This document shows positions 8,216 to 42,224 of a stretch of DNA of 64,000 nt, piece by piece. A model generated the notes under the pieces. The model did not search any database. It saw nothing but the letters and a program-made list of their open reading frames with translations, and was not told the origin of the DNA. Every line of letters starts with the position of its first letter. Position 1 is the stretch's first letter. The position numbers and the translations under genes are program-made. This stretch comes from Owenia fusiformis (Eukaryota; Annelida; Polychaeta; Sabellida; Oweniidae), in NCBI GenBank assembly GCA_903813345.2, contig CAIIXF020000009.1, positions 8,178,030-8,242,029 on the forward strand, in the 5' to 3' direction.

Positions 8216-8559
8216 TCTATTTTCATATCCATATGTCCCTGTGTTAAAACAAACAATAAAAACAAATATTTGATTCTAATAAGGTGAATACCTATGCATC
8301 TTTCACAAGTGGTATTCAGGCTTCATGGAGTATCAACTGTGAAAGTGCTACATGTACAGTATTCTCCAAAAGCGAGTGAAATATTTATTTCATTATATCA
8401 TTGTCCAGTCCTAACTGGAAAAAGTTTTAAACTTTTTGGAAAAACGTCTCTATATTTGACAAAACGTGTGGTTAAAAGGGGATGTAAAGCTACAAACAAA
8501 TAAGTTGAGTTTGACAAATTACTCTTCAAATTACGAGTATACGAGTGGGGATCTAAACC

Positions 8560-9462
8560 TCTGGTCCAGTCCTAACACTACATTTGACATAGTGTCCAGT
8601 CCTAACACTACATTTGACATAGTGTCCAGTCCTAACACTACATTTGACATAGTGTCCAGTCCTAACACTACATTTGACTTAGTGGCCAGTCCTAACACTA
8701 TATTTGACATAGTGTCCAGTCCTAACACTACATTTGACATAGTGTCCAGTCCTAACACTACATTTGACATAGTGTCCAGTCCTAACACTACATTTGACAT
8801 ATTAGCCAGTCCTAACACTACATTTGACATAGTGTCCAGTCCTAACACTACATTTGACATAGTGTCCAGTCCTAACACTACATTTGACATAGTGTCCAGT
8901 CCTAACACTACATTTGACATAGTGTCCAGTCCTAACACTACATTTGACATAGTGTCCAGTCCTAACACTACATTTGACATAGTGTCCAGTCCTAACACTA
9001 CATTTGACATAGTGCCCAGTCCTAACACTACATTTGACATAGTGTCCAGTCCTAACACTACATTTGACATAGTGTCCAGTCCTAACACTACATTTGACAT
9101 AGTGTCCAGTCCTAACACTACATTTGACATAGTGTCCAGTCCTAACACTACATTTGACATAGTGTCCAGTCCTAACACTACATTTGACATAGTGTCCAGT
9201 CCTAACACTACATTTGACATAGTGTCCAGTCCTAACACTACATTTGACATAGTGTCCAGTCCTAACACTACATTTGACATAGTGTCCAGTCCTAACACTA
9301 CATTTGACATAGTGTCCAGTCCTAACACTACATTTGACATAGTGTCCAATCCTAACACTACATTTGACATAGTGTCCAGTCCTAACACTACATTTGACAT
9401 AGTGTCCAGTCCTAACACTACATTTGACATAATGTCCAGTCCTAACACTACATTTGACAGAG
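8560..9462. repeat. 30 bp minisatellite, about 30 copies
   Basis: The unit is 'cagtcctaacactacatttg' plus 'acatagtgtc'. It repeats with no insertion or deletion for about 900 bp; only scattered substitutions distinguish copies (for example at 8673-8701, 8801-8806, 9015, 9349 and 9431). Because 30 is a multiple of three and the unit lacks stops in some frames, long frames of 337 aa (+) and 305 aa (-) arise. Neither has flanking exon features, so it is called a repeat and not a gene. The homogeneity implies recent expansion or gene conversion. Confidence 0.95.
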
Positions 9463-9933
9463 TGCCGGCTCTGTTATGATCCCTGACTTAATTTCACACT
9501 TCACAAAAACATTTAACTTTGTGATCAGTTCACATTTTTGTACTCGATATAGTTCCCAGTCTCCTCCAACAATTAGTATAAACTTTGAACATCGTTAAGT
9601 GTTACGTTTAGTGTAACCCGATTAGTGAGCCCATTTTCAATTACTTTTGACTTTTTCAGACAAGATATTTGTTTAAATCTTCACTTCTGTCATGCTTTAA
9701 ACCTTGACTTACACTGAACAAATTAATCCTTTTACTTGGAATTGCCACTTGGGTGAATATGCCTAAATATTCACCGGTTGTCTAATTTGATAAGTGTGAA
9801 CAGTGGATATCACTAGATCTTTCATGACAAGCTTGCAATTGTGTGATTTTGACGAATAGTGCAATTAAAAGTTAGACAGTGACATAATAATAGCCAATGG
9901 ATTCATAAGCAATCTTCTATCTATCGTGTTCTT

Positions 9934-22405: not shown

Positions 22406-24342
22406 ACATTTATGCATTTTATACGATTGCTCGTTAATTGAGATATTTATTGAAACTGTTTCTTTCAATCTCAGATTCACACTTTTCAGTTAGAAATATA
22501 CCATGTAAAAATATCCATTTCTAACCGATTGCTAAGTCTTTCTAAGTCTACCAAATCTAATTATCTCTGTCTTGATTGGTTGAGTTTCTCTATTTGTACT
22601 GCTTATATGCTGCTTGCTTTTAAAATAGTTTATAATGGTAAAACCAAACCTACTTGGGACATGAATTCAAAATGGCCATCGCAATGGCCATAACCGAGTG
22701 TCTCATAGTTTCGTTCATTTATGTTGTGGTCACATTTGCTCCGATCTTTTTATTATCCTGTGTATGAAAAACTTTTGAAATTAACATAAACAAAACATTA
22801 CTGAAATACAATGTACAAAGGAATTATCAACGTGTATATATGCGTCCAATAGACACCGATCATCCTTGTTCAGGTTGGGCGATTAAAAATAAAATTATAA
22901 ATTTCCGAATTGATTTTCAAACATTGAATAAAAATCATACATTTCCGACTATTGTAGAAAATAACGATAATTGACTTTCAAACATTAAATATTTGAGGGC
23001 CTTTGATGAGCTATCCAAAGAAAACGTCTGGTTTCCAAACTTATGGAAGGGAGTGTAACTTCACAATTTTGTACATAGTATGCACATATGCATGAACAAT
23101 AATCACAAGTTATGTACATATGTCAAGTTATCCCAAGCCTGAAATGTCTCTTTGAGATATCACTTTTTCACATTTTCTTCAATATAGAACATTATAAAGA
23201 ATTGCTATGAAGTTGAGAGTGTTGACTATGTGTTTGTTTACTTAACCACTTGCTAGTTCCACTCATTTCTACTTTATTTTCAATTGAAATGACATCCATC
23301 CCGAACTTTTATACATGGGTTCAGCTCAAGTTTATCAGGTCTACATCATAGAACGTACACTTATCTGATAATTCGAAGAAAGTATAACTAAAGTGTAGCT
23401 ATGGTATTCAAAGCCTGCGCCACTATAAATCTATTGAAAAGCTTAAACCTTGTATTAGAAGTTTTGGAGTAGGGATGCTATTTTAATTTTAATTAATGTG
23501 ATAAGAAATTCGATATGTATATACATACACATTCATATATACACAGCATAGGATCAAAACTTTATCAAAATTATATCTGAAAAAATTATAATTTTAATAT
23601 TATGTATCGCACTCTACTTGATTAATTTTATAATTGCAATGAAAAAATATTTCCACATAACATAGAACCATAGTAAAAATAAAGCTCTTTAAAATCACTT
23701 TTTGCCTTTTAAAAGCACCTCACCAGAAATGCATTTTACATAAAGTATGTTCTAGCTTCAGTGGTACACTATTACAATAAATACTTACCAGGTTGTTCAA
23801 TAAGAAAATGTTCTCATTTCAAAGTTTTTTTTGATGTTTTGTGAAAATTTCGTGAACAAATAATACAAAACTTTGAAATGAGAGCATTTCCGTGAACTGC
23901 ATTTCGTTAGCTTCATTTTTATTACAGGTGTACAGTATACATATACCCTTTGCATTCGTTTGACTTCACTTCTTAAAAGAGAGCTTCATCTAGTTTAACT
24001 AGACTCTGCACGCAGGGTAGTATGCATAGTGGATACTTTCTCAAGATGGTATTCAACTCGCCTTACGTACGGGCTTCGTGGAATATCATTGTGGAATTTG
24101 TGAATATTGTTAATATGTATCAGTGTATATACCCAGTTTCATCATCAAACGTTTGAAGACTGTTTAGTCATTGTTTGATCGACCATCGCTTTATAATTCA
24201 ATGTTTCTCGCACTACACAGGGAAATTTAAGGACACTAGAAAATTTAAGAATAGTTCACCATCATTTATAAAGTTATTCCAACATTAGACCGTTGTAAAT
24301 TTTAGATCATCCTTTGCAATGAAAAAGAGAAAAGAAAAATCA

Positions 24343-24545
24343 ATGACTTTGACTAATAAGGTATTATGTCTTGCAGTGTGAGAAATGCCTGAAGAGAACG
24401 AAGTTCGCAAAAGCTTTGACTTATAATACGATGTTATCTCTTGAGGAGGAAGGATTGCCCGAAGATAACGGAATTAGCAATGGCTTTTACTAATAATAAG
24501 ATATTATGTCTTACAGAGTAAGAAATGCCTGAAGAGAACGGAGTA
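24343..24545 (+). repeat. Triplicated acceptor-plus-start-codon segment of villin
   Basis: Three degenerate copies of one segment, 'gtcttgcag', 'gagaaATGcctgaagag' and 'aagctttgact', begin near 24343, 24425 and 24485. Only the third keeps an open frame and is villin exon 1 (ATG at 24525). The first encodes MPEENEVRKSFDL and then a stop; the second has lost its ATG (ttgcccgaagataac). If splicing uses the first acceptor (24376) the mRNA would carry an upstream frame. Confidence 0.75.
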
Positions 24546-27500
24546 AGCAATGGCTTTGACTATGACTTTGATCCTGCCTTTGAGGGAGCTGGCGTTGAAG
24601 AAGGCCTTACAACATGGCGCATCGAGGTAATGTGCTCTATGTTTAACTGTATGTTATATATTGTATAAGTGTGCACCCTGTAATTTATATTGCAGTTTAT
24701 GATTTATCGTACACTGTATACTCTAGATTGCACTAAACGTTTTATATTGTTCTCTATATGTATTTTTTATACTTTAGGATATGAAGGTAGTTAAGCAGGA
24801 TCCTTCCATGAATGGCAAGTTCTTTGATGGCGACTCCTACATCGTTTTATCTGTGAGTATGATGACAAATTGACAGCTACATATTATACGTGTCAAAATT
24901 ATTGTGTTTAGATAATGGCAAAAATTGAAAAATAAAAATATATACTTCACAATACAAGTCTATAATTAGAATCAATATTCCTTGGTACTTTATTCATGCA
25001 ATTTTCCCAATTTTTGTGAAAGAATCAAATGTTTACGACGTTCATAATAATCACTATATGCAAACAAGGGTTACCGATCCTTACTTCGCATGTTGTTATG
25101 AAAGCTTTAATTTTTGCAAGGTAGCATTTGATAACTCAGATGTCAAATTGTATTGAAACATTTTTTCCCAGACAAAGGGCTCAAGAACTAAGACGTGGGA
25201 CATTCATTTCTGGATCGGGCAGAATAGTTCACAAGATGAAAAAGCAATTGCTGCCATGAAGTCTGTTGAACTTGACAATATGTTTGGTGGTGCAGCTATA
25301 CAACATCGTGAAGTCCAGGATCACGAGTCTAAACTGTTCCTCTCATATTACAAAGCTGGTATCAGGTAAAATAATGAAGCCTTTTTTGAAAATATTCATC
25401 TGGTGAGTTCTGTTGTTTGTTACCCTGGTTTTCGGCGTTCGACATCTGAAACAAATGATTAATTTTTAAATTCCAGTCAGTTTGTGACATTTTTGCTTAT
25501 TGATGCTTTAAATGTTGACCTACTACAATATTACCATGGATAAAAATTGTCGTTCGTTCACATTGTAATTACTAAATGAAGCGCTCACGTGAATTTCAGT
25601 CGTACCTGCTTAGCACACACTGTCCAGAAAACACACAAGTTATCATACAAATTATTCCAAAAATATAGGCAAAACATTTAAAAATATCAAAGCTAAGAAA
25701 CTGAACACTTCCATTTAGTAAGCAGCATGTCAAGTTAAATAAATGTACTGCTTTATACTACTCGTTTCGGTATTTAAAGGAATGTACTCTTTTTTGACAT
25801 TTTATTGATGTTGCAAGTTACATATTATATCGGGTGTCCCAAAAAATGAGACACTTTTTGCCAAGTATTTTTTCGGCAACTGATGAACCAAATTTTGGGA
25901 AAATTTGTACAAAGTAGCCCAGGAGTATCGTTAGCAAGGTACAGAAATATGACAAAGATCAGATAAATTTTATGCGAGTATTAAGAAATTCAACATAGCA
26001 TATCAAAATGTCCCATACCGGAGCAATACAATGAGAATTTTCATCGCGTTTGTACCAAAAAGGGGAAGGAATTTGACAAGTGATTTCTCAGCAATAGATG
26101 AGCCAAATGATTTGAAAACTTTACTTGAGGCATTTTAGGATATCTTCTGCTCGTGCTATGAATATGTAAGAGATTGGCCTTATATTATGTGTGTACTGTT
26201 GAATTAAAAACAGTATGTAAAAATAATCATTATCGATGTAAATCTCACTTATTAATCCTTTTCATGCAAAATACCTTTCCGTATTTATTCTTAACAATAT
26301 CACCTCAAATGAATTTTGAGAATGAATGGATTTTGGATATTTGGAAAGAATGAAATGAATTAAGTAGACGAGACACACAGACAAGCTATTTTGACTTGTT
26401 TACAAATGCTATCACCTGATAGCTGGTAGAAACACTGTAGAGGTGACTCATCGCAGAGCTCCGATATGGGTCTATTTGACATGCTAATTTGAATCTCTTA
26501 TTACTCGGGGAATTTTTACTTGATTTGTTTTATATTTGTACAACTTGCTAATGATACTCTCAGGCTAATTTGTACAAATTCTCAGTGAATTTGGTTTATT
26601 AGTTGCCGAGAAAATACTTAGTAAAAAGTGTCTCATTTTTTTGGGACACCCGATATATCCTTATAAATCCATATACAATTTGTAAAATTAGTTATATAAT
26701 GCCATAAAACAGGCCTTCATAATGGTGTGAAGACAAGGTTGAGAAATTTTGTTTTGTGCAGGTACCTTAAAGGAGGTGTGAAATCAGGACTAAGCTCTGT
26801 TAGTGACATTAAGTTCAAGAAGAAACTTCTACAAGTGAAGGGCAAGAGGAACGTTAGAGTCAGAGAGGTACCTGTTCCTCATTGATTCAAAATATCACAT
26901 ATAATATCATTAACAAATGTATATATTTAGTTGTGTGACACCACAATCAAATTAAAAATATAACTGTTCCATTAATATCATATACTATAAGTGGTGTGAG
27001 ATCACAATCGATGTAAACTTTTTTGTCTACAAACAAATGATCTTTTTCAAAGAAACCAAAGAATTATTAAACGTTGTATGTTTTTTATCGTATGATCTGT
27101 AAAATGAAGCCCTCTGATTGGTCAGTTCTTGTGCTGTGAAAATCTGTATTGCTACTGAGATTGTCCCCGTTGATCATCTCCGTCGCAATACAGAAAATAT
27201 CGGTACGGAGGGGACAATCTCAGTAGCAATACAGAGGATCACACGATAACAACGTTATTGAATGATTTGAAGTGCAATACAGGATATATTCTGTCTCGAT
27301 ATTCTGTATTGGCACTCGACTTCGTCTCGATCCATTACGGAATTTCTCGAGCAGAAAATATCCTGTATTGCACTTCAAATCATTCAATAACTTATAATAT
27401 TATTATAGGTTCCTTGTAAGTGTGCGTCCCTAACAAAGAACGATGTTTTCATACTCGACTGTGGTCAGGAGATCTGGGTATGGATTGGTCCTAACAGTAA

Positions 27501-30500
27501 CAGAATGGAAAAACTTAAGGTAAGTATTTTAATCTCAACTTTTGATTAATACAGAATACAGAAATTGTATTTTATTTCTTTATAGCAAGTCTTATGTATG
27601 GCGAGAGGGATTGGTCTTGTAATAGTAACATTATCAACTTCACATTTTAACAGGACCTGAAAATTAAGGGAAGAGGGGAGATCAAACTGAAAATCCTTTA
27701 CAGCATCAAAAATTGTCAAAAATTTAAAATTTGGGGTAATCTATCTTCAGACCTCAGGCAGGGGCATTGTCTTGGCTTTGATACAATCTGACAAATGACA
27801 TTCTCTGTCCTGAATTGTATTATCAGCGTGGCCAAGGATAAAAAGGTTTATGAAAACGAATCCAAAATTGTCATCTCCTTACTATAGGCTACTAACTTCG
27901 TTATCGATGTTAACATTTCTATTACAACTTTTTAAAATGCATTAATGAATAAGTGTAATTGTAGTATTGTAGCCTTGTCCGTTTTACTAATGTTTTGGTT
28001 TTTTAAAACAAGCTTGCACCTGTGTCACGTAAAATACCCTCCACGATAGGTAATTTTAGTATTACATACTTGATACCGTTAAAATTACCTATTTTAAAGA
28101 GTAATTTTACATGAAACCAGTGCTCCTTATTGCCCTTTCTATGTTCAATGTGTTAGTTGTCTACGACAAAAAAGCTTGGTGATCATTTCCTTATAAAAAA
28201 TAAAAGGTTTGTCAAAATTGGTAATTATATTTCCAAAGATGGCAAACCCTCATTTTTGGCCCTATTATTAGCAACACTCTTGAATTTGAACTACTTGAAT
28301 ATCAAAAAAACTCTAACCCCAATTGTGGAATGCTGATTATGGGTATACGCCATACACGTCCTGTGTATTTTCGTTAATTGATGAACATGTTTTGTTGATA
28401 TCACAATACAACAGGGCACATTGGCGGCAAAAGCTATTCGAGATGACAGAGATGGCAAAGCTAAAATATATGTTGTCGGTAAGCTTTGAGAACACGCCCT
28501 TAATACCTTCAAAGCCCCTCTCCCTGATGTCCCTTATTCAACCTGTCGCAAATGTGATAGGAATTCCTTTAAATGTTCATGTAAAAGTGACAAACTTGTA
28601 TCTATTAGTAACCTTTTGTATTTATCTTAATAATACATGTACTTTAGGTATCTGATTTGATGAATAATCCCGTTTCAGCACCAATAATTCTGAAAAGTGA
28701 ATATTTAGACTATGGTTGATTTCAACTCCGATACAATCCCATATACATCAGTGAATTATCCCGACATGATGTATAGTTTAGGGATAATGCAATACTTCTT
28801 AAAACATTGTCCCTTCCTTATATGTTTTATATTGGGATGGGATTATCAATTAGATTCTGAAGTATTTTCCCACCCAAATATCCCGTTCCCGTGATGATTT
28901 CTTTCAGAATCCTCTTTCCAACCCAAGCACTCACTTTTTGTCTTACCACTTATTTCTTTTTCTCTTGTTACTCGTTTGTTAACATCACCTTTTTCTCTTA
29001 TTACTCGATTGTTAACATCAATTTTTTCTCATATTAATCGTTTGTTAACATCACCTTTTTCTCTTATTAATCGTTTGTTAACATCACCTTTTTCTCTTAT
29101 TACTCGATTGTTAACATCACCCTTTTCTCTTATTACACCTATGTATTTATAAAAAAGCTATAATAATTAAATCATGCGTTTAGCATATTTTGTAGAAAGA
29201 CGGTGGGAAATAACTCTTGGGTTTCTTTTATCCCCATATTGTTTTATCTATTAACTGGTTCGCCGATGACGATATTTTGCGTTTGAATTCAATATGCTCT
29301 GAAACATTCTATTTGATTATTAATTATATTACACAATACCAATCACAGCACTAACCAATCTATTACCGATTCCATTAACCTACTTATTACTCAAACCCAT
29401 GGTCATGTATTACATTATACCATTTAACCAACCCATTTATTACCTTAACCCATTCATAACACTAGCCCATTCGCATACTAACGCATTTAACCTATTTGCA
29501 CTTTAGACCCTACAGACTGCCCGTCTGATACGAGATGCATATCGGGAAGGAAGAGTTAAAATTTACATCGTTGGTAAATGTGCAATTTTGATGTACTTTG
29601 TCTAAGGTGGCCATTTCTAGAATATAAGAACGTTTTGGTGTTTGTGAATTTAATACATATATTGTTTTGCTGTAAAGAATGCACCAGATTGAATTCATTC
29701 ATGATATCTGAATCTAGAAATGGCCCTCATCATTTCACTTTGGGCAAATGAATGACACTGGTCATTTGAGTCAAGGTGCATGTGAAAATAATTTGCTTTT
29801 TAGCTTATTTAGCTATGATATTTGACACAGATTTTGTTGCGATTTAAAAATTTTTTATTAAGCATTAAGCCTTGGATATAATAAGCTTCTATTATTATTA
29901 TCAAAGCTGAGAATATGCCTAAAGCTTTTCTATTAAATACGGGCTTTACAAATAAAAAGTTGTATCATAAAATTTGCTGTATTGAAAACCGTTTTTACAT
30001 ATACATGCTGTAAGGTTTTGGTACAAACTTTCATAAAGCAATGAAACATAGATATATTCTAGACTTTCATTTAGGATGAAACTTTTATAATTCATAAATA
30101 TATAACCACTTAAAATAATGTTATGATTTTTCTGAAATATAACTTTTAATAACATTCTAGCTACATTAGATTTTGCTTCAACTGGGGTCACAGAGAGGAT
30201 TGATTATATATCTGTAATGCGGAAACTACCTTGTTGTAATTAATTTATATCATTAGTTAAGAACCTACCATACATTCCATCAGAATTCCTGATTATCTAC
30301 GCCAAATATTATTGAAAATTAAAATTATATCATGGAACAGTGTCAAAATCTCCCCCCCCCCTGCCTGTTGCAATCGCATGTCTGATGCTTGTTGAACCCT
30401 TATAATTGACCCCTCCAATTTACTTTTTATATTAAGAAATGAATGACTGATGTTTACTTAAACTGAATATCTGGTATCTCTATATACATGTGTGTAACCT

Positions 30501-33500
30501 TTTATTAATAGGGAGGTTAATTAAGCTATAAGAAAACTTGTACGTGAACCTTTAGAATTATGGTCCTCTAAGAATTCGTTCTCTCATTCGTAGTATTTAC
30601 TTGCCCGATTGAGCGTATAAGAAAAGGGTATAAGAAAAATAGTTTTAATTGGGTCCCTGGAAAAATTGTCATGGGGACAGTATGTTCCAGGGGTCATACT
30701 ATTACACGTTCACGTATAAGTTCTCTTAAAACGCGTAGCTTAACCTCCCTGTTAACAATGTAAAAATGTAATCCTTTGTAAGCCACATAAATTAATTTGT
30801 AAATAGTGATTTGGATTTAATCAAAGATTAATGTAAAACTTTTAAAGAATAATTAAAATGTCCATTTGCTGCAACATATATCTAAAATGAGAACAAATTC
30901 AATATTATTAACAAAAATAACCTGAATAAACAATACGTCAAAATAAAATCGATTCATAATTGATCCTCTAGAACAAAACTGGGAATCAGACAAAAAGTTC
31001 TTTGAGGCGCTTGGTTCCAAAGACAAAGAAATTAAAGCTGGAGACCCGGATGATCGCCACAACGAGAACGAGAGAGGACCCGAGAGTCAGTGCTGTCTCT
31101 ATCGATGTTCATTCGATGACAATCTGAAGATTCAAGTAGAAGAAGTGGCTCAGAGACCCCTTAGTAAGGGGATGCTCAATTCAAATGTAAGTTATATGTT
31201 ACTCTGACTTTACATAGTTTATATAGTGGCGACATCTATATGTCTTATCACGAATTCTTAACTTTGCGAAAGTTCTGTTAATGACCCCCTGGTTGTTAAC
31301 CTCTTATTTTCACTTTCACTTCAGTGTTCAACTAAAGGTCAGACTTGTGAAAATGTTTACTTGGATTTGATTTAGTTTGTATTTCTATCAATATTAAAAT
31401 CTTGAATTGGATCAGATCAAGATATATTGAATTAACAATTCTTTATTTTAGTGCTGTTATGTCTTGGACTCTGGTATAGGTGGCGTCTGGGTATGGACTG
31501 GCAAGAAATGTTCAATCGATTTCAAGAAGTTTGTTTGGAAAAATACAGAAGTAAGGAAATATGAAGTTTTATTATGTTCCATGATTAAAATAAATCGTGT
31601 GATGTCCTCAGGTTTGAAGCATACAACGCTGTATATTCGGGAATTTATAAATTATTTATCCCACTGTTGACAATTATCCCATTATTAAAAGTCATGCATA
31701 GTTTTTAAGCCCTCTTCACGACAGGCCCGTAGCCAGGGGAGCTGGGAGAGCGGAAACTGGCCAGAAATTCTTTCAAAATCATGCAGTTTTTCAACATACT
31801 GAGCACTTTTCACCGAACTTTGAGCCATAAGTGTAAAAAGCTCTCCCCATGATAAAAACCTGGCTACGGGCAAGGTATTACCTTAGGAGAGGGGCCCTGT
31901 CAATGAAAGTCATCATTATGTACACATGTCTATCATCTTCTTGATACTTGATAAAGGAATTCCTAGACTACAGAGGCTATCCAGACTGGACTCCAATGAC
32001 ACGTGTGACAGATGGCGGAGAATCACCCCTATTTAAACAATACTTTGAGATATGGCAGGATGACACCGACCAGAAGGGTTTAGGAGATGTCAGCACAGTA
32101 AATCAAGTAGCAGGTAGTTTTAAAATACTAGTTTAGAACTGGGTAATTTCATCATTTTCATTATCCAACCTCTGTCACCAATGTAATGATCAAGGGCTGC
32201 AGGAAGAGAACTAATTACTTTAGTACATAAATATCGTATCGTGAAATAAAACCAAATCCCCAAAAATTTATGCCATATTTTAAAATTATTAAAAACGTAG
32301 TATGATAAAAAAAAAGTCCCAAACTATTCTGAAATATAGTCTAGAAATATTGAGACAATTCAAGTACAGGTAGGATGTGAAGGGATATTAGAGATTGCAG
32401 GAATATAATCTCTCTGTTTTTCTAGAGCAATCAGATGACAATTTAGATGGCGCTGACCTACATAAAATGACCAGACCAGCTACATCTGAGGATTACATGC
32501 CCGATGACGGCTCAGGGGAAATCAAGGTAAAAGCATGGAGTAACGAACTACTTTTGGCTTGCAAGAAAAGTGAATTTAGAGATCTTTCTAATTGTGCATT
32601 ATCATAGTTTGGGATATTGCGGGTTTGAGTCCTTATAAATCGTTGAGTTAGGTCCTTCTCCTTTTACACTATGTTACTTAGTCTTACCTCCATATATTGT
32701 AGATATACCGTATCGAGGGTAATGATCTTGAAGAAATCCCTAAAGAATTACACGGCATATTCTTTGGTGGGGATTGTTACATAGTTGCATATATGTACAA
32801 AGATGAGTCTGGAAAAGATAAATACATCATATACTTCTGGCAGGTTGGTACTTTTAACTTATATTTAGGTATTTACTTATAACTAAGTATGTTGAAAATA
32901 TAAAAACAACTAAAGCCTCAGAATTTGTACCTATATTTATATTTGTTTATGAATTTGATTGTGAATATTGTGATATGTAGACTGAAGAGATGAGCCCATG
33001 CAACCAAAAATGAAATTGTTAACCTTTGATGAGAAAAGTGGATTACACTATTTATGCTAATGCAATTGATATACCGAATATGAAACTTACTTCAATACAT
33101 GTGTAGGGCCAGAGAGCCACCACAGAGGATAAGGCAGCCTCAGCCCTACAGACCATTACCCTGGATGATCATCTTGGAGGACAAGCCCTGCAGGTAGGCT
33201 TGTGGCGATTTTTTGGCTTGATGAAAAAACTTGAGTGCAAAGCATAATTCTTGTGTTTTAAATGCAGATAAAATCATTATAGCATTACAGCTGATATTCG
33301 ATACTAGATAAGTAATACATACATTAATACTAATATTTCGAGATTGATGTATTTGAATCACATTTATTTTGGTCATAACATGAATACACATATCATCATT
33401 CGATGTGTTTGAGATTTCAATTTTCTATATATTTCTATATCAGATTTATTTTCAGTTATAACATCACATACATGTGCAGGTAAAACAAAAATTACAGAAT

Positions 33501-36500
33501 TTCTAAACTAAATTCCACCTGACATATAATTAAAAAGATCCTTTAAGTGATTTGTGACGTGTGTTTCCAGATTCGTGTTGTGATGAACAAAGAGCCTAAA
33601 CATTTTCTAAAGCTCTTCCATGGCAGACTGGTTGTATTCCAGGTTATTAATTATTAATTAATATAATATCTAAGAAATATAATATCTCTGTAATACATAT
33701 ACAAACGGGGCAGGGGAATTTAAACGTAATTGTGAACATTAAGTGAATAAAAATGTATATTGATGGTTTGATTCTCTTTACATCGCTATTTACCATGCTC
33801 ATTTACCATTTACATATTATATATTGTACATTTTCGGAATTTTAATACAACCCCTCAGTTGTATGATTCACAAGTCATTAACCCGATGTGGAAGACATTA
33901 TTCAATAGCCTATATTTATGGATTTTGATTCACATACGTAGCCAAAGCATAATAAGTATACTAAATGATTTTGACATCACACCAAGGAAAAAATGACCAT
34001 GAAACTTAGAATATAAGACAAAACGATACGATGTAACAAAAATTTAAGTAACAGTGTTATATGCACTGTTATAATGTTTTAACATGTTAAAATGTTCTCT
34101 TTAGATTGGCCAATCCAAGGGATTCCGTAGCATGAAAGACCATGCTGCATACAACCCCACAGCAATGCTGTTTGAGATTCGAGGCAATGAACAGGACCTC
34201 ACCAGAGCTTTACAGGTACTCATGGCATATCTTTAGTTTATATTTTATTCAGTTGATATACATAGTGGTCCAAAAATCATTCACACTTTTAATTGCGTAG
34301 CATTTTCTAATGATTTTTTTTGTCATGTGCTCAATCCAAACTCCATGCACACACAGTAATCTCTGTTTTAGTATTCTTTAGCTCATCAATTGTTTGGGGA
34401 TTGTTTGCATCGATCCTGCCTTTAAAGTATCCCCACCAAAAATAGGGGATTCGTCTTGTGAATGTACAGGTCAGGTGCGATCCATACAATATGAGATGAG
34501 TCTGACTACAGGGGTGAAGCATTTGAGCAGTACGGCGTTGCTTCTTCTTTCTAATGGATAACAGAATCGATGTTAACCCCTCGCCTCCGCGCAAATGCCA
34601 GAATGATTTTTCTTCTTATAACTTCAATGTATCAGTCCATGTTCACAGGAGAGGAACGTCCATCCTCAAACCAGTATGACCCAGTATCACCAGTATGACT
34701 TAACTTTCACCAGTCAACTTCTCTGCATCACATGTTTGATGCCGATGCTCAGAAGGCTAATCCTGAGCCCAAAAGTGTATTTTCTATTTGTTGAAGGTTA
34801 TTACCAACTTAAATTTGAAATTAACTTAATCATTAACTGTAATCAGCACCAAAGAGCGTGGCTTGGGGACAACACAAATTATTGACCCCATGCTCTCATT
34901 ACGGTGGTATATCAAAATAAAACGTATACCATACAAAACTTGCATGTCTGTAGGACAGGTCTATGAAAAAATGGGAGATCTTCCTGTCGTTAGACAATGT
35001 TACGTTGTCAAAAGTGTGAATGATATTTTGGAGTACCCTGGATAAAGTCACGCCCGGTGATCGTGAATATGGGACGGAGGGGGGAGCAGGCAATTTCTGC
35101 TAGGAAATTCAACAAATCTGGAAGATGTAGAACGTAATTTACGAGTGAGTACGCAGTGATGTGCCGAAAACAGAGAGTTTAGCTACCACTGTCTTCAGAT
35201 TAAAAAAAAATTAATGCTGGCGTGGTTCGGAGAAGATTGTGAAATGAAGCCATGATTGATGATTGTCGTCTATATGTGTATTATTAGTTTCTTCTGACTA
35301 ACAAAACAATTGTAGACCTCTTCATTCGGTCAACCGTCAAAATCATATAAATCGACTGTAAACCTTGACAGAGACCGAGGGTCTGGCTCAACAGTAGTTT
35401 CTCGGTTTACAGTCTCGGTATACAATTTTGCCGGTTGACCTGTGGAGAGGCAACAATTGTATACTGTCTACCATGTAACGCTTAAACTTATTAACTTTTA
35501 AATTTTGAATTATATTTTTCTATATACCAATATAGGTAGAAGACAGAGCGGCTTCCCTGAACAGTAATAGTGTATTTATGCTGGACACCAAGGACAAGAC
35601 TTACGTGTGGGTCGGAAAGGTAAACATTTACTCAACATGTTTCATCCTTTTTCAATAGTATCCCGTATCATTTTCATCGTTTTGTCAATCATAGTTTCGT
35701 CTGTTTTCTTGAAATTAGATATAGGGCCCGGCCAAATTGTGAGTTATGTTTATGCAGATAGTTTAAAGTAAATTCAATACATACCATACATTCTTTAAAA
35801 TGGAGCAATTTTTAATTTGAAGGAAATCAAGAAATATTAAGCTGGGCAGTGTCAAACTTTGAAGGAATTGGTTTTTAACATTGAAATTTTGACTTGGTCC
35901 CTACAGATAAAAATGTGATTATTTAATAAGTGAAACAAAATTTTCATCACATTGAAAATAATAATTTGTAGGTGTATGGACTTTCAATGAGCTATACATC
36001 ACCCTCTAAAGGTTTAGCAACCATATCTTCTCAACTGAACCACATGTTAAAGCCTTGTAATGTTTGGCAATTTAACAACATATAGAAGTTATGAATGTCT
36101 GATATTTTTCCATCGAACAGAAAAATCAAAATATAAGCTAGTACCATTCTTAAACGCTCTACAATGATTGACATACTTTACGAGGGAGTGTAACATAAAT
36201 AATCTTTACACGCTGTACAATGATTGTCATACGTTACGAGGGGGTGTAACATAAATATATTTTACACGCTATAAAATGAATACCATAACATACGAGGGTA
36301 TGTAACATAAATAATTTTTACACGCTGTACAATGATTGCCATACCTTACGAGGGGTGTAACAAATTATCTATGCTATAACTTTTAGAATGCCAATGACAG
36401 TGAGAAAGAAATGGCTCAATTGTGTTGTGAATTTATTGGAGAAAAGTAAGTCATACTGATATATTTCAGTGACACCTTTGTGGCAGGCGTTGTTTTACCC

Positions 36501-39500
36501 TTCACTTGCGACACCATTATTTAAGGTCCTTTTCATTTTCAGCGTTGTTGTTTGACAATGTACATCACTTTTTGGTGCACAGTTTACCTGCATTCCCTAA
36601 CCTAAATTAGAATTGATATTTTGTCTAATGAGTAATATAATGTATGGTTGCGTCTTGCGAACCTCAACGTAAAAATGCCAATGTGGTCATAGTTTTTTTT
36701 ATTAGCAAGGAAAACATCAACGAGGTGTACTTGACTGTCTAAATTACTCGTATAAACCAGAAAATCAGCTTATTTTTAAGGGGAGAACCAGAAAATCAGC
36801 TAATTTTTAAAGGAGAGGTAGAGTGAAATAACCATGAGCAGACGTAATACATGACATACATGTAATGCCAGTATTTGTGATTCAGAAGTTTTAAATAAGT
36901 TGAAAGTTCTGAAATGATTAACTTCTGAAGAGATGCTATACACACATGGTATATTTTTTTGTAACCCCACAGTCAGTTGGTGTAGCTAGATATGACCAAA
37001 CACTCACTTGGTGACCCAACACGATCACTTGGTGTATTTAGATGTGACCCAGCATTCGCTTGAAGTATTTAAATGTAACCCAATTCTAACTTGGTGTATT
37101 TAGATGTGACCCAACACTCACTTGATGACCCAACACGATCACTTGGTGTATTTAAATGTGACCCAACACTCACTTGGTGTATTTAAATGTGACCCAACAC
37201 TCATTTGGTGTTGTCGATGTTATATCACACCAACATGGTGTATTTTGATTTGACACCCCTAAAACAAGGTGTATATACCCAGACCTACATGGTTTATTTA
37301 GATTTGACCGTACACTCACACCGTGTGTTTTTATGTGATTCCCACCCACATTGTGTGTGTTTCCCCAATTTATCTTGCACTTCCCTTATATTTACCTTTT
37401 ATAGAATGCACAGAAAAACCAATTGGAAATGGCAGCTTTGTGTTGTGAGTTTGTCTGTGAAAAGTAAGTTTCTCGACTGCATGCATGAACTAACATTGTA
37501 TTGTTCTGATGATATACACGGATAATATTTTGTTTTATTTTGATATTATAATATAATTTGACATGAGTGTGTTCAAGTGAAATAATCAAATACGTATATC
37601 AATATTACAATTTATCCTATATCAATGATATAAAATGTGACATGTATGCTAAATGTGAAAACTGAAAAGCTTATGGGAAGTACACACTTAATTTAGTTTA
37701 TATTTCTAAAAATAATTTATTTCATTTGCTAAGTTATCAATAACAATTAAGCATTCATTTAGATTATGTATAAATAAATTATTATGTCCATAGAGAACCA
37801 GAGGTCATCGTGGAAGGAGAGGAATCATTTAGATTCTGGGACGCTATAGGGGGACAAGAGGAGTACTATAAGGGGCCACCTATCAAAGTAACTTATTTTT
37901 TATAGTTTTTTCATTTGTTTCATTTAAAATTATTTCAAACTGAAAATCATAAATTTTACAAAATAATTGTCACCATTAAACTAACGGAATTGATTTTGCA
38001 CTTCAACAAATGCTGACAATTTGACGCAATCTTTATTTACTGTTATGGCGTCTATGTTGATGCTCAGCGGGACGAGTGACAGCCAAAATGACGCCACCCT
38101 GGTTCGAATCCTGTTCTAGTTATTAAGTCTGTATTTCCTTTTTCTAGGATTCCAACTATATCCCTCCCAGATTGTTCCACTGTTCTATCAGCTCAGGGAA
38201 ATTCACTGTGGAGGAAATATTTGACTTCCAACAACAGGTTTGTATCATTGGAAAGCATTATACGTCATCATTATAAATATTTGCATTTTGCCGTTGAATA
38301 ACTTTCTATTTTATCATCGGAAGCTTCAAGATTTTATGTCAATTTCAAATCTCATGTACCATTCTAAAGCTTCATATGATATATTTGTGCTATTTTGGAA
38401 TAATTTCTACTTATACAACAAGCGTGATATATATATACCATAAGAAAGCTGTAAAATGTGTATTGTTTACATCGATGCACTGAAATCAAATCAAAATAAT
38501 TTAAAAATGTATTTTTTTAGGATTTGGATGAAGATGATGTAATGATTCTCGATGCCTATACTGAGGTATACATGATATGCATTTAGTATTTAAGTACACC
38601 CGCCCCTTTTACAAGTTTAGTAACTGTATGGCACCAATAGGCAGCATTTCATTTGATCTACAGTTACAGTTAGTTGGAATTGACTTTGATCAATTTGTCA
38701 AATTATCGCCAAATAGTCCTAAACACATTGTTGTGGAAAGGGGACTTCGTTTGCTTAACATTTAACAAACTTAAATCAGTAGATTACTGAATAAATATTT
38801 ATAAAAACTGACATGGGTATGTAAAAAAGCTAACTGACAAGCTAGAATTGTTAATGATGACTGCAGTGAAGATTATGAAAATAATGTTAAAAATACATGA
38901 AAAGTTATCACCACCCTTGACTGTGAGTAAATATATGATGCATTGATATCTGTTTCTGTTTTTTTAGGTATTTGTGTGGATTGGACAGAATTCTGCTGAA
39001 GTTGAGAAGTTGGGAGCATACAAAACTGCTATTGTAAGACTATAATCAGATAATTATTGTTCATTTTTGAAACAACTAGTAGACCATTTTGGCCCCTTTG
39101 ATAAACAAATGAAACAATAGCATTTTATAGGCTAGATTCGTGATGTTGTACGTTGTGACAAGTAGTGTCTCTATACTAAATTGTGTTCGGTTTTTGAAAA
39201 TTAAAAAAAAACTGTAACAATCATTGTCATAATGTATTCTAGCAATATTCAACTATCACATTATCAATTATACAATGCTGAAACTAAGTGAAATTCTATG
39301 TTCTGAACAAGTAAACAACTGTTCACTTTTATTTTAGTTTTCTTACTTTAAATATGTTTCATAATTTTGTTTGAACAGCCTTTGTTAATGTATCTCTACT
39401 TTTGGTCAAACCTCACAAATAACAACACAGATTTATGCATTATACACAACTGATGATGTATAAATGAATAAATTGTGTCTATAGTTTTAAAATTTGATGA

Positions 39501-41077
39501 ATTAAGAATATGATTAAGGACTTGCAACTTTTCATTCGTATTACAGGAATACATTGAGAGTGACCCCTCAGGAAGAACAAAAGACAATACCATGATTGTT
39601 GTTGTACGCCAAGGCTGCGAACCTCCATTCTTTACAGGGCATTTCCATGGCTGGGACGCGGAAATCTGGAGTGTAGGGACAATTTCGAAATAATTTTAGA
39701 ATTGTGGTTTGTTAATTGATCAGTTAGAATTGTATGGTTCACAATCTGCAATGCAAACGAGATCTTCAAGTCAAGATGTATGACTCTTGATCCAAATGAA
39801 AACATTTAATGAATTATAAAATAACGTTTATCAGTTTCTTCTTATAAAGTAAGTGTGACTACAACTCAACTATACCATCCATTAATTTTTCCATATATAT
39901 GTTATAGTCAACTACTCAAACTCTTCTTACCTTAATTTGTATGGAAATGTTTTAAATTGGTACCCTTAAGAGTTAATTCCACTTGATATAAATATACAAT
40001 CATTTATATATTTAATTTGATTTTGATGATTGACTTTCAAGTGAATTACTGAATGAGAATTTTCATTAATTCTGATAAACTTGTTAATGATATTTACATG
40101 TTATGGTGGAATGCATTGTTTAAAATCAAATGACGATGACATTTCCAAATTATTTCATTTTTTCTGAAAGTTTGGAACCATCGCAATGATCACATATATG
40201 ATTTTACAGAAAGGTCTGACGTGGGAACAGTTGGTGGCTCAAGTTGGCGAGGAGAATGCTGGAGTATCTTTGGTAGAAGAGGTACATACATAAAAAGTAA
40301 TAAATATCTAAATCTGAAGAAAGATTAATTTCAGTTCAGAAAAAAGCATTTTATTGTACATATATTGTTATACATTGTACTACTATTTATTTTCACGTGT
40401 GAGTGTGGTGCTAAATTAAATTTATGGTTATAGTGTTATGGTCTCGGATTGTGATAATGATGCTTGAGTGGTGGGGAGGGGGAATTAGACACTGTTTCTT
40501 TTCACGTTGGATTATGATTTGGGATAGTTGGTGTCTGTTTTCCTTATGACTGGTGTCCTCTTAGATGTCTTCTTTTTCTTGCCGTATTCTGTTACCATTT
40601 TTTGTGTTTTACCGTTCCCACTTACGCTTACATATAGAACAAGTATATCTGTACGTGTGTTTTGCAGGAGGTTGAAAAGTATTTTAAACCATACTCCTAC
40701 AAAGAACTTCTAAGAAGCCCACCTCCAGAGGGAGTTGATCCAACATGTAAAGAGGTGAGTAAATACACGTCCTTATGGTAAACACATATTTGAGCTAAAA
40801 ATTCAAAGAAGTCCCAGTCATGTTCCAGTACTGACATATTCTATGCTGGGATGTCATGATTTTGTTCTACAACAATCGGTAAATATATCATGAGCAGTTA
40901 TTGATGCGGCACATCAAACCTTCAGCTACATTTATAAACAATGTTTGAAAAATTATTTTCCAGCAATACTTAAGTGAAGAAGAATTTCTTGAAGTGTTTG
41001 GCATGGCAAGAGCCGACTATGAGAAGATGCCGAAATGGAAACAAATCAATTTGAAAAAGTCAACAAAACTTTTTTAA
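24525..41077 (+). CDS. VIL1: Villin, actin-severing, capping and bundling protein
   Basis: 24 exons give 823 aa, close to the roughly 827 aa of vertebrate villin. Exons: 24525-24626, 24778-24852, 25172-25365, 26762-26867, 27409-27519, 28415-28478 or 29507-29573, 30972-31186, 31452-31550, 31957-32113, 32426-32526, 32703-32843, 33107-33193, 33571-33642, 34105-34215, 35536-35619, 36387-36445 or 37405-37463, 37794-37887, 38148-38237, 38521-38565, 38968-39033, 39547-39672, 40210-40281, 40668-40754, 40964-41077. All join in frame at GT-AG sites. Six gelsolin repeats are visible (for example [63 protein letters not shown]). The C-terminal 36 residues are a headpiece ending [14 protein letters not shown], the F-actin-binding mark that separates villin/advillin from gelsolin. 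It acts on actin filaments, probably in microvilli, under calcium control. Advillin orthology cannot be excluded. The start is the only ATG giving an open first exon. Confidence 0.95.
25830..26653. mobile_element. Mariner-type MITE in villin intron 3
   Basis: Ends 'tcgggtgtcccaaaaaatg' and 'ttttttgggacacccga', flanked by TA on both sides. The arms remain similar for about 100 bp ('gagacactttttgccaag', 'tttgtacaaa'). No transposase frame remains. TIR style GGGTGTCCCAAAA is typical of Tc1/mariner relatives. Confidence 0.8.
27108..27396. mobile_element. Double hairpin element next to villin exon 5
   Basis: Two stem-loops: 'ctgtattgctactgagattg' (about 27146) pairs with its inverse near 27230, and 'attgaatgatttgaagtgc' (27256) pairs with 'gcacttcaaatcattcaat' (about 27370-27388). 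The second arm ends about 20 bp before the exon 5 acceptor at 27408. Confidence 0.7.
28415..28478 (+). other. VIL1: Villin alternative exon 6a
   Basis: 64 bases between 'caacag' and 'gtaagc', entering in phase 0 and leaving in phase 1. It encodes [21 protein letters not shown], split here as [17 protein letters not shown] and IYVV: the gelsolin repeat 2 helix ('xxIRDxxRxGxAxVxVV' in the family) and the following strand. It is interchangeable with exon 6b at 29507. Joining 6a to 6b shifts the frame to a TAA within 6b. Confidence 0.85.
28940..29135. repeat. 33 bp minisatellite between villin exons 6a and 6b
   Basis: Five to six units of 'cgtttgttaacatcacctt' plus 'tttctcttattaat', period 33 bp (for example 28981, 29014, 29047, 29080, 29113). 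Pyrimidine-rich on the transcribed sense strand. Confidence 0.85.
29507..29573 (+). other. VIL1: Villin alternative exon 6b
   Basis: 67 bases between 'gcactttag' and 'gtaaat', phase 0 in and phase 1 out. It encodes [22 protein letters not shown], homologous to exon 6a (shared IRD, G, K-IY-V) but one codon longer and different in the first seven residues. Both acceptor and donor look functional. Skipping both 6a and 6b, or using both, breaks the reading frame, so exactly one should be used. Confidence 0.8.
30510..30750. mobile_element. MITE in villin intron 6
   Basis: 'agggaggttaattaagcta' at the left is inverted as 'tagcttaacctccct' at the right, and the similarity continues inward ('cttgtacgtgaacc' against 'ggttcacgtataag'-like sequence). 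241 bp, non-coding. Confidence 0.7.
31722..31874. mobile_element. CAGGCCCGTAG-family MITE, copy in villin intron 8
   Basis: Left end 'caggcccgtagccagggg', right end 'cctggctacgggcaag'. The interior 'atcatgcagtttttcaaca' and 'tactgagcacttttcac' match the copy at 44803. No clear target duplication here. Confidence 0.7.
34331..34600 (-). pseudogene. Tc1/mariner transposase C-terminal remnant in villin intron 14
   Basis: The minus-strand frame contains [20 protein letters not shown] followed by ELKNTKTEI. This matches the 'DFFLWGYLKxxVYxNxPxTIxELK' end of mariner-family transposases. The upstream catalytic part is scrambled or missing, and one Leu-Trp is Trp-Trp. A short 'gtggtccaaaaatcattcac' at 34266 may be its terminal repeat. 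Dead copy. Confidence 0.7.
35303..35463. mobile_element. MITE in villin intron 14
   Basis: 'acaattgtagacctcttca' then 'ggtcaaccg' at the left is inverted as 'cggttgacc' then 'gagaggcaacaattgt' at the right; about 160 bp, non-coding. Confidence 0.7.
36160..36370. repeat. 56 bp minisatellite just before villin exon 16a
   Basis: Four units of 'cacgctgtacaatgattgcc' plus 'ataccttacgaggg' and 'gtgtaacataaata', with 'acgagg' at 36180, 36236, 36292 and 36348 (period 56). The last unit ends about 20 bp before the exon 16a acceptor. Confidence 0.85.
36387..36445 (+). other. VIL1: Villin alternative exon 16a
   Basis: 59 bases between 'aacttttag' and 'gtaagt', phase 0 in, phase 2 out. Encodes [19 protein letters not shown] plus two bases of Lys: the helix of gelsolin repeat 5 after TYVWVGK. 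It has an equal-length, equal-phase homologue at 37405. Using both gives a stop in exon 17; using neither also gives an early stop. Confidence 0.9.
36970..37395. repeat. About 32 bp degenerate minisatellite before villin exon 16b
   Basis: A dozen diverged units of 'cacttggtgtatttagatgt' plus 'gacccaacact', becoming less regular toward 37390. It runs right up to the exon 16b acceptor at 37404. Confidence 0.8.
37405..37463 (+). other. VIL1: Villin alternative exon 16b
   Basis: 59 bases between 'ttttatag' and 'gtaagt', with the same phases as 16a. Encodes [19 protein letters not shown] plus two bases of Lys. 12 of 20 residues equal those of 16a (NA, EMA, LCCEF, EK), while the polar first half differs. 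Identical length and phase indicate tandem exon duplication. Confidence 0.9.
38040..38125 (+). mobile_element. Possible tRNA-derived SINE remnant
   Basis: A B-box-like GGTTCGAATCC (38101-38111) lies about 40 bp after an A-box-like 'gatgctcagcggga' (38057). It sits in villin intron 17, ending about 30 bp before exon 18. No body or tail was traced. Confidence 0.35.
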
Positions 41078-41450
41078 CAGCACATACACATAAGCAAGAA
41101 CTAAACATGACAGTATTACACGAAGGAGTATTCTTGGAACATTATGTTTTGGCATTTACAGAACCACAGAGTAATATGTTAATTCGTGATTGCTATAACT
41201 TCAGATTTTTTAACCTCAGAGGTTATGAGTTTGACTAATGAGATGAGTGTTTGACTTAAACGCCTCTTGGTGTATTCAGTATCACAGGGTTCACTTTGTG
41301 GATTGACAAATTTATTTTAAGATTGTATTGCAACAAAATAGTAAGTAAGTAAACTTATTATTAAGTATTATATAAATGTATGGCAATTTGGACAATACAG
41401 GGCAAGGCAATACAAGATGATTCAGGCAAATCAGGACACTTTAGGCAATA

Positions 41451-41987
41451 TCACTGGTGATCCGCTCGATTACGCTGGTTACCGAAACGGTTCGTTTTGG
41501 TAACAAAATGTCGGAACGTCGAAGGTACGATTTTTCTCTTTTCCTTATTTCACGATTTGTTGGCAGAATCCCAACGACGTTTTTTCTCACAAACATGTAT
41601 CAGCATCATATGTTTTAGAAAATGTACATGTTTGCGAAAAAATAGCTCAGAAGACAACAGAATCGTCGATTTAATTCCTCACTTAAGTTACATAAACGGT
41701 TTGGGTTAAAAGTGCAGATCTTAACTGTTTTTCGAAAAACCGTTTATGTAACTTAAGTGAGGAATTAAATCGACGATTCTGTTGTCTTCTGAACTATTTG
41801 TTCGCAAATATGTACATTTTCTTAAACATATGATACGGATACACATTTGTATTAAAAATGTCGTGGGAATTCTGCCTACAACGTGTGAAATAAGGAAAAA
41901 TGAAAAATCGTACCTTCGATGTTCCGACATTTTGTTACCAAAACGAACCGTTTCGGTAACCAGCGTAATCGAATGGATCACCAGTGA
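41451..41987. mobile_element. Foldback element downstream of the villin stop
   Basis: Near-perfect inverted arms of about 250 bp: 'tcactggtgatccgctcg' at the left, 'cgaatggatcaccagtga' at the right, with only a short spacer around 41715. Overlapping frames on both strands encode similar peptides for this reason. It lies about 375 bp after the villin stop. Confidence 0.85.
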
Positions 41988-42224
41988 ATATAGGATAATT
42001 TAGGCAACTACTCAAAATAATTTGAGCAAGACACATTATAGGCAGACAGTAAATAAAACTGAATTGTTTTTTATTATTGTTATTTTATATTGTACAGTGT
42101 TATAGGCTAAATAATATATAAAATAAATAAACGTAGTAGTATAACATTTTAATGACTTATCTTCTTATTGTTTGTTAGCCAAAGTTAAGCTACTATGAAT
42201 GAAAATATGTTAAGGCATTTAGTC

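Follow-up and report, generated by a model that had tools for sequence, protein, structure and literature searches.

A villin gene with two duplicated internal exons

The window, a stretch of 64,000 nucleotides from contig CAIIXF020000009.1 (C9) of the annelid Owenia fusiformis, carries on its plus strand a villin gene at 24517-41077, and two internal exons of this gene, exons 6 and 16, are each present as a pair of similar, alternative copies. The gene model has 24 exon positions with GT-AG introns, and its translation gives a protein of 823 or 824 residues, laid out as domains V1-V6 followed by a headpiece. The model is a prediction throughout, and the position at which exon 1 begins is a guess. 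A 70-base unit, repeated three times in tandem at 24354-24562, spans the start of exon 1 and includes partial copies of the start-codon region.

The first 21 exon positions span 24517-39693, and exons 22-24 are joined to them in frame downstream. Six stretches of the Pfam Gelsolin family (PF00626) were detected in each of the two isoforms tested, both taken without the headpiece. The best match of the 6a/16a form, again without its headpiece, in the Protein Data Bank (PDB) was the villin of a vent worm (9jus, 579.5 bits), and human gelsolin gave 555.7 bits. A headpiece-family search of the whole genome located a villin headpiece (Pfam VHP, 66 bits) at C9:8218996-8219103, which corresponds to 40967-41074 of the window. 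The protein thus has both features that mark a villin, namely six gelsolin repeats and a C-terminal headpiece in frame, the splice at exon 21 being predicted. A first model, which ended at 39693 and had no headpiece, had been identified as gelsolin, and this identification was overturned by the VHP match and the three additional exons. The 3' end of the gene is as follows.

39547-39693, plus strand: exon 21, with its spliced end at 39672 before GTAGGG and, when unspliced, a TAA stop codon at 39691-39693
40210-40281, 40668-40754 and 40964-41077, plus strand: exons 22, 23 and 24, encoding a linker and the villin headpiece and ending in a TAA stop codon

The donor of exon 21, after EIWS (GTAGGG, 39673-39693), looks weak, and read-through stops before the headpiece. 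Thus, a villin form devoid of the headpiece is possible.

The two exon pairs and their predicted splicing

The alternative exons and the constant exons that flank them are given below.

27409-27519, plus strand: constant exon 5, V2 through the front of helix alpha-A (EKLK), ending in phase 0
28415-28478, plus strand: alternative exon 6a, 64 nucleotides, rear of V2 alpha-A, loop and beta-E, phase 0 to 1
29507-29573, plus strand: alternative exon 6b, 67 nucleotides, V2, phase 0 to 1
30972-31186, plus strand: constant exon 7, end of V2 and start of V3
35536-35619, plus strand: constant exon 15, V5 through TYVWVGK, ending in phase 0
36387-36445, plus strand: alternative exon 16a, 59 nucleotides, V5 alpha-A with a calcium-type Glu, phase 0 to 2
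37405-37463, plus strand: alternative exon 16b, 59 nucleotides, with Gln in the Glu column, phase 0 to 2
37794-37887, plus strand: constant exon 17, end of V5

The first-pass annotation of this DNA had proposed that alternative exon pairs are present in V2 (6a/6b) and V5 (16a/16b), and our analysis bears this out, since all four exons are flanked by AG and GT and the likeness within each pair is beyond chance. The members of pair 6 are identical at 10 of 22 aligned positions and those of pair 16 at 11 of 19, and both pairs show the length, phase, splice-site pattern and sequence similarity expected of mutually exclusive exons, as judged by the criteria of PMC3228551. When the introns adjoining each of the 22 internal exons were scanned for splice-flanked open exons of fitting phase, only exons 6 and 16 proved to have a copy; for the other 20 internal exons the best intronic candidate scored below zero or no candidate was present. 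The true partners scored 42 (pair 6) and 61 (pair 16); in the four tests made in the window, the highest scores among 100 dinucleotide shuffles were 2, 5, 7 and 13. Not one of 100 shuffles came up to the observed similarity in any of the six tests, of which four concern the window and two the C7 and C4 pairs described below. Exon 6a was not among the matches listed for the window in an exon scan that demanded a pyrimidine-rich acceptor, and was found once this filter was dropped.

Codon positions 1, 2 and 3 differ in 8, 8 and 13 of 21 codons between 6a and 6b, and in 7, 3 and 11 of 19 codons between 16a and 16b. The excess of third-position differences over first and second positions together gave a one-sided Fisher p of 0.064 for pair 6 and 0.021 for pair 16, the values for the C7 and C4 pairs being 0.0002 and 9e-8, respectively. 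Outside the exons, blastn comparison of 400 nucleotides on each side gave matches of just 10-13 nucleotides at pairs 6 and 16 and of 11-23 nucleotides at the C4 pair; the C7 pair gave none. Pairs 6 and 16 fit the description of old duplications that would have been kept under selection.

Use of both members of a pair, or of neither, resulted in a frameshift and an early stop in all four cases built for pairs 6 and 16. As the frame is broken either way, each pair is most likely spliced in a mutually exclusive manner; the frames are computed, and from them we infer the splicing. All four villin isoforms that had been proposed (6a or 6b with 16a or 16b) are encoded and remain frame-intact in the gene model. 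Inverted pairs of sequence were listed around the alternative exons, 13 at exon 6 and 4 at exon 16, and no docking/selector RNA pattern could be argued from these near either exon, the listing having no shuffled control. The introns between the copies measure 1028 nucleotides (6a-6b) and 959 nucleotides (16a-16b). Minisatellite arrays lie in introns adjoining the alternative exons, at 28956-29136 (between 6a and 6b), 36150-36362 (between 15 and 16a) and 36960-37211 (between 16a and 16b), and the array scan, which covered 24000-42000, also detected a small one in the intron between exons 13 and 14.

Position of the pairs in V2 and V5

Repeats 2 and 5 are indeed paralogous, as the first-pass annotation had stated; in PMC13013752 the paralogous repeats are paired as G1/G4, G2/G5 and G3/G6. 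The exons were placed in an alignment of 20 repeats, of which eight came from the window villin (V2 and V5 in both forms), six from the vent-worm villin and six from human gelsolin. Secondary structure was taken from human G1 as described in PMC5368644, with alpha-A at columns 64-82 and beta-E at columns 91-96. Alpha-A is a long helix in which one of the calcium ligands resides; the alpha-A helices of V1 and V4 also bind actin.

Exon 16 occupies columns 61-79, which include 16 of the 19 columns of alpha-A. Exon 6 occupies columns 70-95 and covers 13 of the 19, along with the loop and beta-E except for its last column, so that the two exons overlap in columns 70-79 only, that is, in ten columns. 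Their 5' introns are both in phase 0 and stand 9 columns apart, and their 3' introns stand 16 columns apart (11-12 residues, the remainder being gaps) and are in phases 1 and 2. The pairs had been described as occupying equivalent positions in the two repeats, which does not agree with columns 70-95 against 61-79 and with the differing 3' phases. They had also been said to begin, both of them, near the end of the VW(I/V)G strand and to replace the helix that follows. Exon 16 starts at residue 2 past the G of VWVG, but exon 6 starts at residue 11 past the G of VWIG, within the helix, and continues beyond it. In the ten shared columns, identities were 4 of 10 within pair 6 and 7 of 10 within pair 16, as compared to 0-2 of 10 across the pairs. 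Pairs 6 and 16 most likely arose in separate duplications.

Duplicated exons in related genes of the same genome

A second villin gene, also with a headpiece, is present on contig C7 (about 27302156-27330896, minus strand). It has the same phase-0 5' introns as the window villin, one following EKLK in V2, the other following SGK in V5; its V2 exon is duplicated, and a single V5 exon was found, fused with those after it. Duplicated exons were also found in gelsolin genes on contigs C4 and C5.

C7:27326374-27326475 and C7:27323950-27324051, minus strand: V2 exon copies of the second villin gene, each of 102 nucleotides and phase 0 to 0, with identity at 18 of 34 residues
C4:16313243-16313370 and C4:16312326-16312453, minus strand: G1 helix exons of a short gelsolin, 128 nucleotides each, phase 0 to 2, 31 of 42 identical
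C5:28707281-28707967 and C5:28695001-28695063, minus strand: two gelsolin genes next to each other, each with exon 2 duplicated

As the C7 copies are in frame with one another (102 and 102 nucleotides, phase 0 to 0), exclusive use of one of them would need regulation and would not follow from frame. In the first C5 gene, the exon 2 copies are 75 nucleotides each and lie in the strand region, off the helix. In the second, one copy has decayed; it contains an in-frame stop and has no GT where its sister has the donor. In total, four genes carry five pairs, to which one decayed pair is added, and four of the five pairs touch alpha-A, all counts from the genome searches being lower bounds. No duplicate exon was recognised in a supervillin-like region (C7:28034000-28043500) or a flightless-like region (C9:20224500-20234499), both named from a reading of their translations, the tests there being blunt in that the templates found no exon (best scores 7 or less). 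The matches listed in tblastx self-comparisons were the best 25 of 51 for the C7 villin region, 25 of 71 for C5, 25 of 41 for the window and at most 25 of 1416 for C4, as well as 6 of 6 for C9 and 9 of 9 for the supervillin-like region of C7. Neither of the two window pairs was among the best 25 of the 41 window matches; the comparison is too blunt to pick up exons this short and may overlook further duplications.

By hand count, parts of alpha-A occur in 9 of the 22 internal exons of the window villin, and the probability that two of two duplicated exons would fall there is about 0.16. Targeting of the helix was considered as a statistical claim and given up, in view of this value and of the C5 pair located on strands. 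Hence we claim recurrence, targeting being not proven.

Calcium-ligand columns and proposed function of the exon choice

The Asp and Glu calcium columns are intact in all 12 reference repeats, vent-worm and human. In the window villin both residues are kept in V1, V2 and V6 only; V3 has Cys/Phe, V4 has Asp/Asp, and V5 has Ser/Glu with exon 16a or Ser/Gln with exon 16b. The window villin therefore does not carry type-II ligands in every V domain, which, to our knowledge, is not required of all villins. From the alignment and general knowledge, we take the G5 residues in this column pair to be calcium ligands. With Ser already standing for Asp, the Gln of 16b leaves V5 with no acidic residue in either column. 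The Glu column holds human E209, which is a G2 ligand together with D187 (PMC6105678); the text of that paper assigns Type I to the E209/D187 site and Type II to that of D109. We hypothesize that the choice between 16a and 16b may act as a calcium switch in V5.

In the vent-worm villin structure (PMC12674126), V1 and V4 bind actin tightly through long helices, V2, V3, V6 and the headpiece touch actin loosely, and recruitment to the filament is brought about by V2V3 together with the headpiece and the V3V4 linker; V5 is unnamed among the actin-contacting domains in the available text of that paper, a point that speaks against taking the modular actin-regulator switch of the first-pass annotation for more than a proposal. 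With V2 touching actin and V5 unnamed in the contacts, a docking or packing role would suit exon 6 and a role in fold or calcium response would suit exon 16. The choice at exon 6 would exchange the rear of V2 alpha-A, the loop (one residue longer in 6b) and beta-E of a filament-docking repeat, and may in this way tune filament docking or the packing of V2 on V3. The choice at exon 16 would exchange most of V5 alpha-A, 16b placing Gln at the position of a calcium-coordinating Glu, and may act through the fold and the calcium response of the rear half of the protein. Both pairs use 5' introns common to the second villin gene, with 3' boundaries specific to each pair.

A wider proposal, which we put forward tentatively and regard as doubtful, is that the gelsolin superfamily in this genome has repeatedly and independently made alpha-A selectable by splicing (V2 and V5 of the window villin, V2 of the second villin and G1 of the short gelsolin), and that 16b would switch off the V5 calcium site and so change the thresholds for severing and capping.

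Weighing of alternative explanations

Taken as a whole, the data make it quite probable that the window gene encodes a six-repeat villin with a headpiece, two internal exons of which would have been tandemly duplicated in separate events and would be spliced exclusively, with the effects on V2 and V5 outlined above. Several points weigh against this account. Exon use and exclusivity are predictions from the DNA. The acceptor of exon 6a has a pyrimidine content of 0.47, the lowest in the villin gene, and the codon-position bias of pair 6, taken by itself, misses p 0.05. As 6a is about as similar to human G2 (48) as to 6b (47), similarity alone cannot date pair 6. The tree of exon-6 copies (six rows, 23 columns) is without a fully supported fork (82/89) and is put to supporting use only, and the comparison with other animals consists of vent-worm and human proteins, at the protein level. 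Lastly, the V5 Asp has already been lost (Ser, in a constant exon), and the calcium site may thus be weak even with 16a.

The alternative that survives best, which we nevertheless hold to be rather improbable, is that the V2 pair predates the split of the two villin genes, which would leave the V5 pair as the sole new one of the window gene. The V2 pair of the C7 villin starts at the same phase-0 intron after EKLK, the scores of 6a against human G2 and against 6b are compatible with great age, and one C7 copy scores higher against the vent-worm villin (72) than against its partner (67). However, the 3' boundaries differ, being in phase 1 after KIYVV in the window gene and in phase 0 after DELK/DEKK in the 102-nucleotide C7 exons, and the within-gene scores, 47 and 67, lie above every one of the four cross-gene scores (19, 28, 30 and 36). 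Moreover, the C7 copies group with the vent-worm villin and the window copies with human G2, at the same 82/89, which is below full support. With its own 3' boundary, and with within-gene scores above the cross-gene ones, the C7 V2 pair looks like another independent event, and separate duplication of exons 6 and 16 within the window gene is preferred.

It is unlikely that in each pair one of the two exons is a duplication remnant that has no function. Decayed copies do occur, as in the C5 gelsolin with its in-frame stop and the GT gone from the sister's donor place, and the acceptor tract of exon 6a is weak, but all four window exons keep an open frame, phase and AG/GT despite third-position differences in 13 of 21 and 11 of 19 codons. 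Lower still we place the chance that the pairs are real, yet are spliced as optional or tandem exons. The introns of 1028 and 959 nucleotides between the copies would exceed the range of steric exclusion, and no competing inverted-repeat pattern can be argued from a listing that had no shuffled control; but inclusion of both copies, or of neither, brings a frameshift and an early stop in both pairs, and since the exon boundaries lie within alpha-A, a doubled copy could hardly fold normally. Mutually exclusive splicing thus remains the preferred explanation.

The first-pass annotation had offered two origins for the pairs, and the first of these, by which the exon duplication is older than the three-to-six repeat duplication and V2 and V5 inherited one pair, is very improbable: the pairs do sit in paralogous repeats and have ten alpha-A columns in common, but the idea is contradicted by 5' ends 9 columns apart, 3' ends 16 columns apart, 3' phases 1 and 2, and shared-column identities of 4/10 and 7/10 within the pairs against 0-2/10 between them, and the V2 duplicate of the C7 villin has another 3' boundary, its one V5 exon being found fused with the following exons. 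The mismatch in position and phase strongly disfavours a common origin unless both copies of a pair were later shifted alike, as this origin would demand. The other origin, that the same structural element was made variable independently, stands as far as independence is concerned, but the element is the same only loosely, the common part being those ten columns.

Comparison with known systems

Mutually exclusive homologous exons that recur within protein families are already established, and the villin/gelsolin instance would add to them. Tandem duplicated exon substitutions in voltage-gated calcium channels, tropomyosin and Slowpoke, as reviewed in the text of PMC9741552, resemble the pairs described here in involving homologous, phase-matched neighbours, of which one is used at a time (as predicted for the window pairs), and in showing several independent events per family, with convergent recurrence; some of them, as reported there for Slowpoke, alter the calcium response. 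Our case differs from those systems in concerning villin/gelsolin, in comprising two events in paralogous repeats, and in being read from genomic sequence only. The same paper cites Copley 2004 for ion channels and has actin binding among its enriched terms. According to PMC5740500, a secondary-structure element is interrupted by one end or both in 87% of the structure-matched human exons of this kind, and the same is seen in the window pairs.

The villin of Paralvinella sulfincola (9jus, PMC12674126) also has six V domains and a headpiece, and is 45.9% identical to the window villin over 704 residues, but all six of its V domains are described as binding a type-II calcium, whereas in the window villin the ligand residues are altered in V3, V4 and V5. 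Words that start with 'splic' are absent from the main text of that paper. The second villin, on C7, is like the window villin in its headpiece, 5' introns and V2 duplicate, and differs in its single V5 exon and in the phase 0-0 of its V2 copies. Human gelsolin has six repeats and 41.2% identity to the window villin over 704 residues, and is devoid of a headpiece. We know of no duplicated exons at these places in human gelsolin.

No report of duplicated exons in villin or gelsolin genes was among the matches listed in a literature search that covered titles and the beginnings of abstracts, subscription literature falling mostly outside its scope. Neither 'gelsolin' nor 'villin' occurs in the main text of the exon-duplication papers PMC3228551, PMC9013439, PMC9741552 and PMC5740500. 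The oyster sodium-channel paper PMC5295241 was considered as a precedent, and its available text offers none.

Gelsolin and villin are textbook examples of calcium-gated actin regulators. The five pairs in four genes, one of them off the helix, would supply naturally exchanged versions of a single structural element, together with matched controls, for the study of what V2 and V5 do, and would place an actin regulator among the families with convergent exon duplication. The recurrence within one protein superfamily of one genome adds to the interest, and the idea of pairs inherited from an ancestral three-repeat protein is corrected.

Other features of the window

Long repetitive open frames are present on both strands at 8460-9476, with a unit of the SSPNTTFDIV type on the plus strand. 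An open frame of 195 residues at 6409-6993 resembles, by eye only, a small-molecule or sugar methyltransferase.

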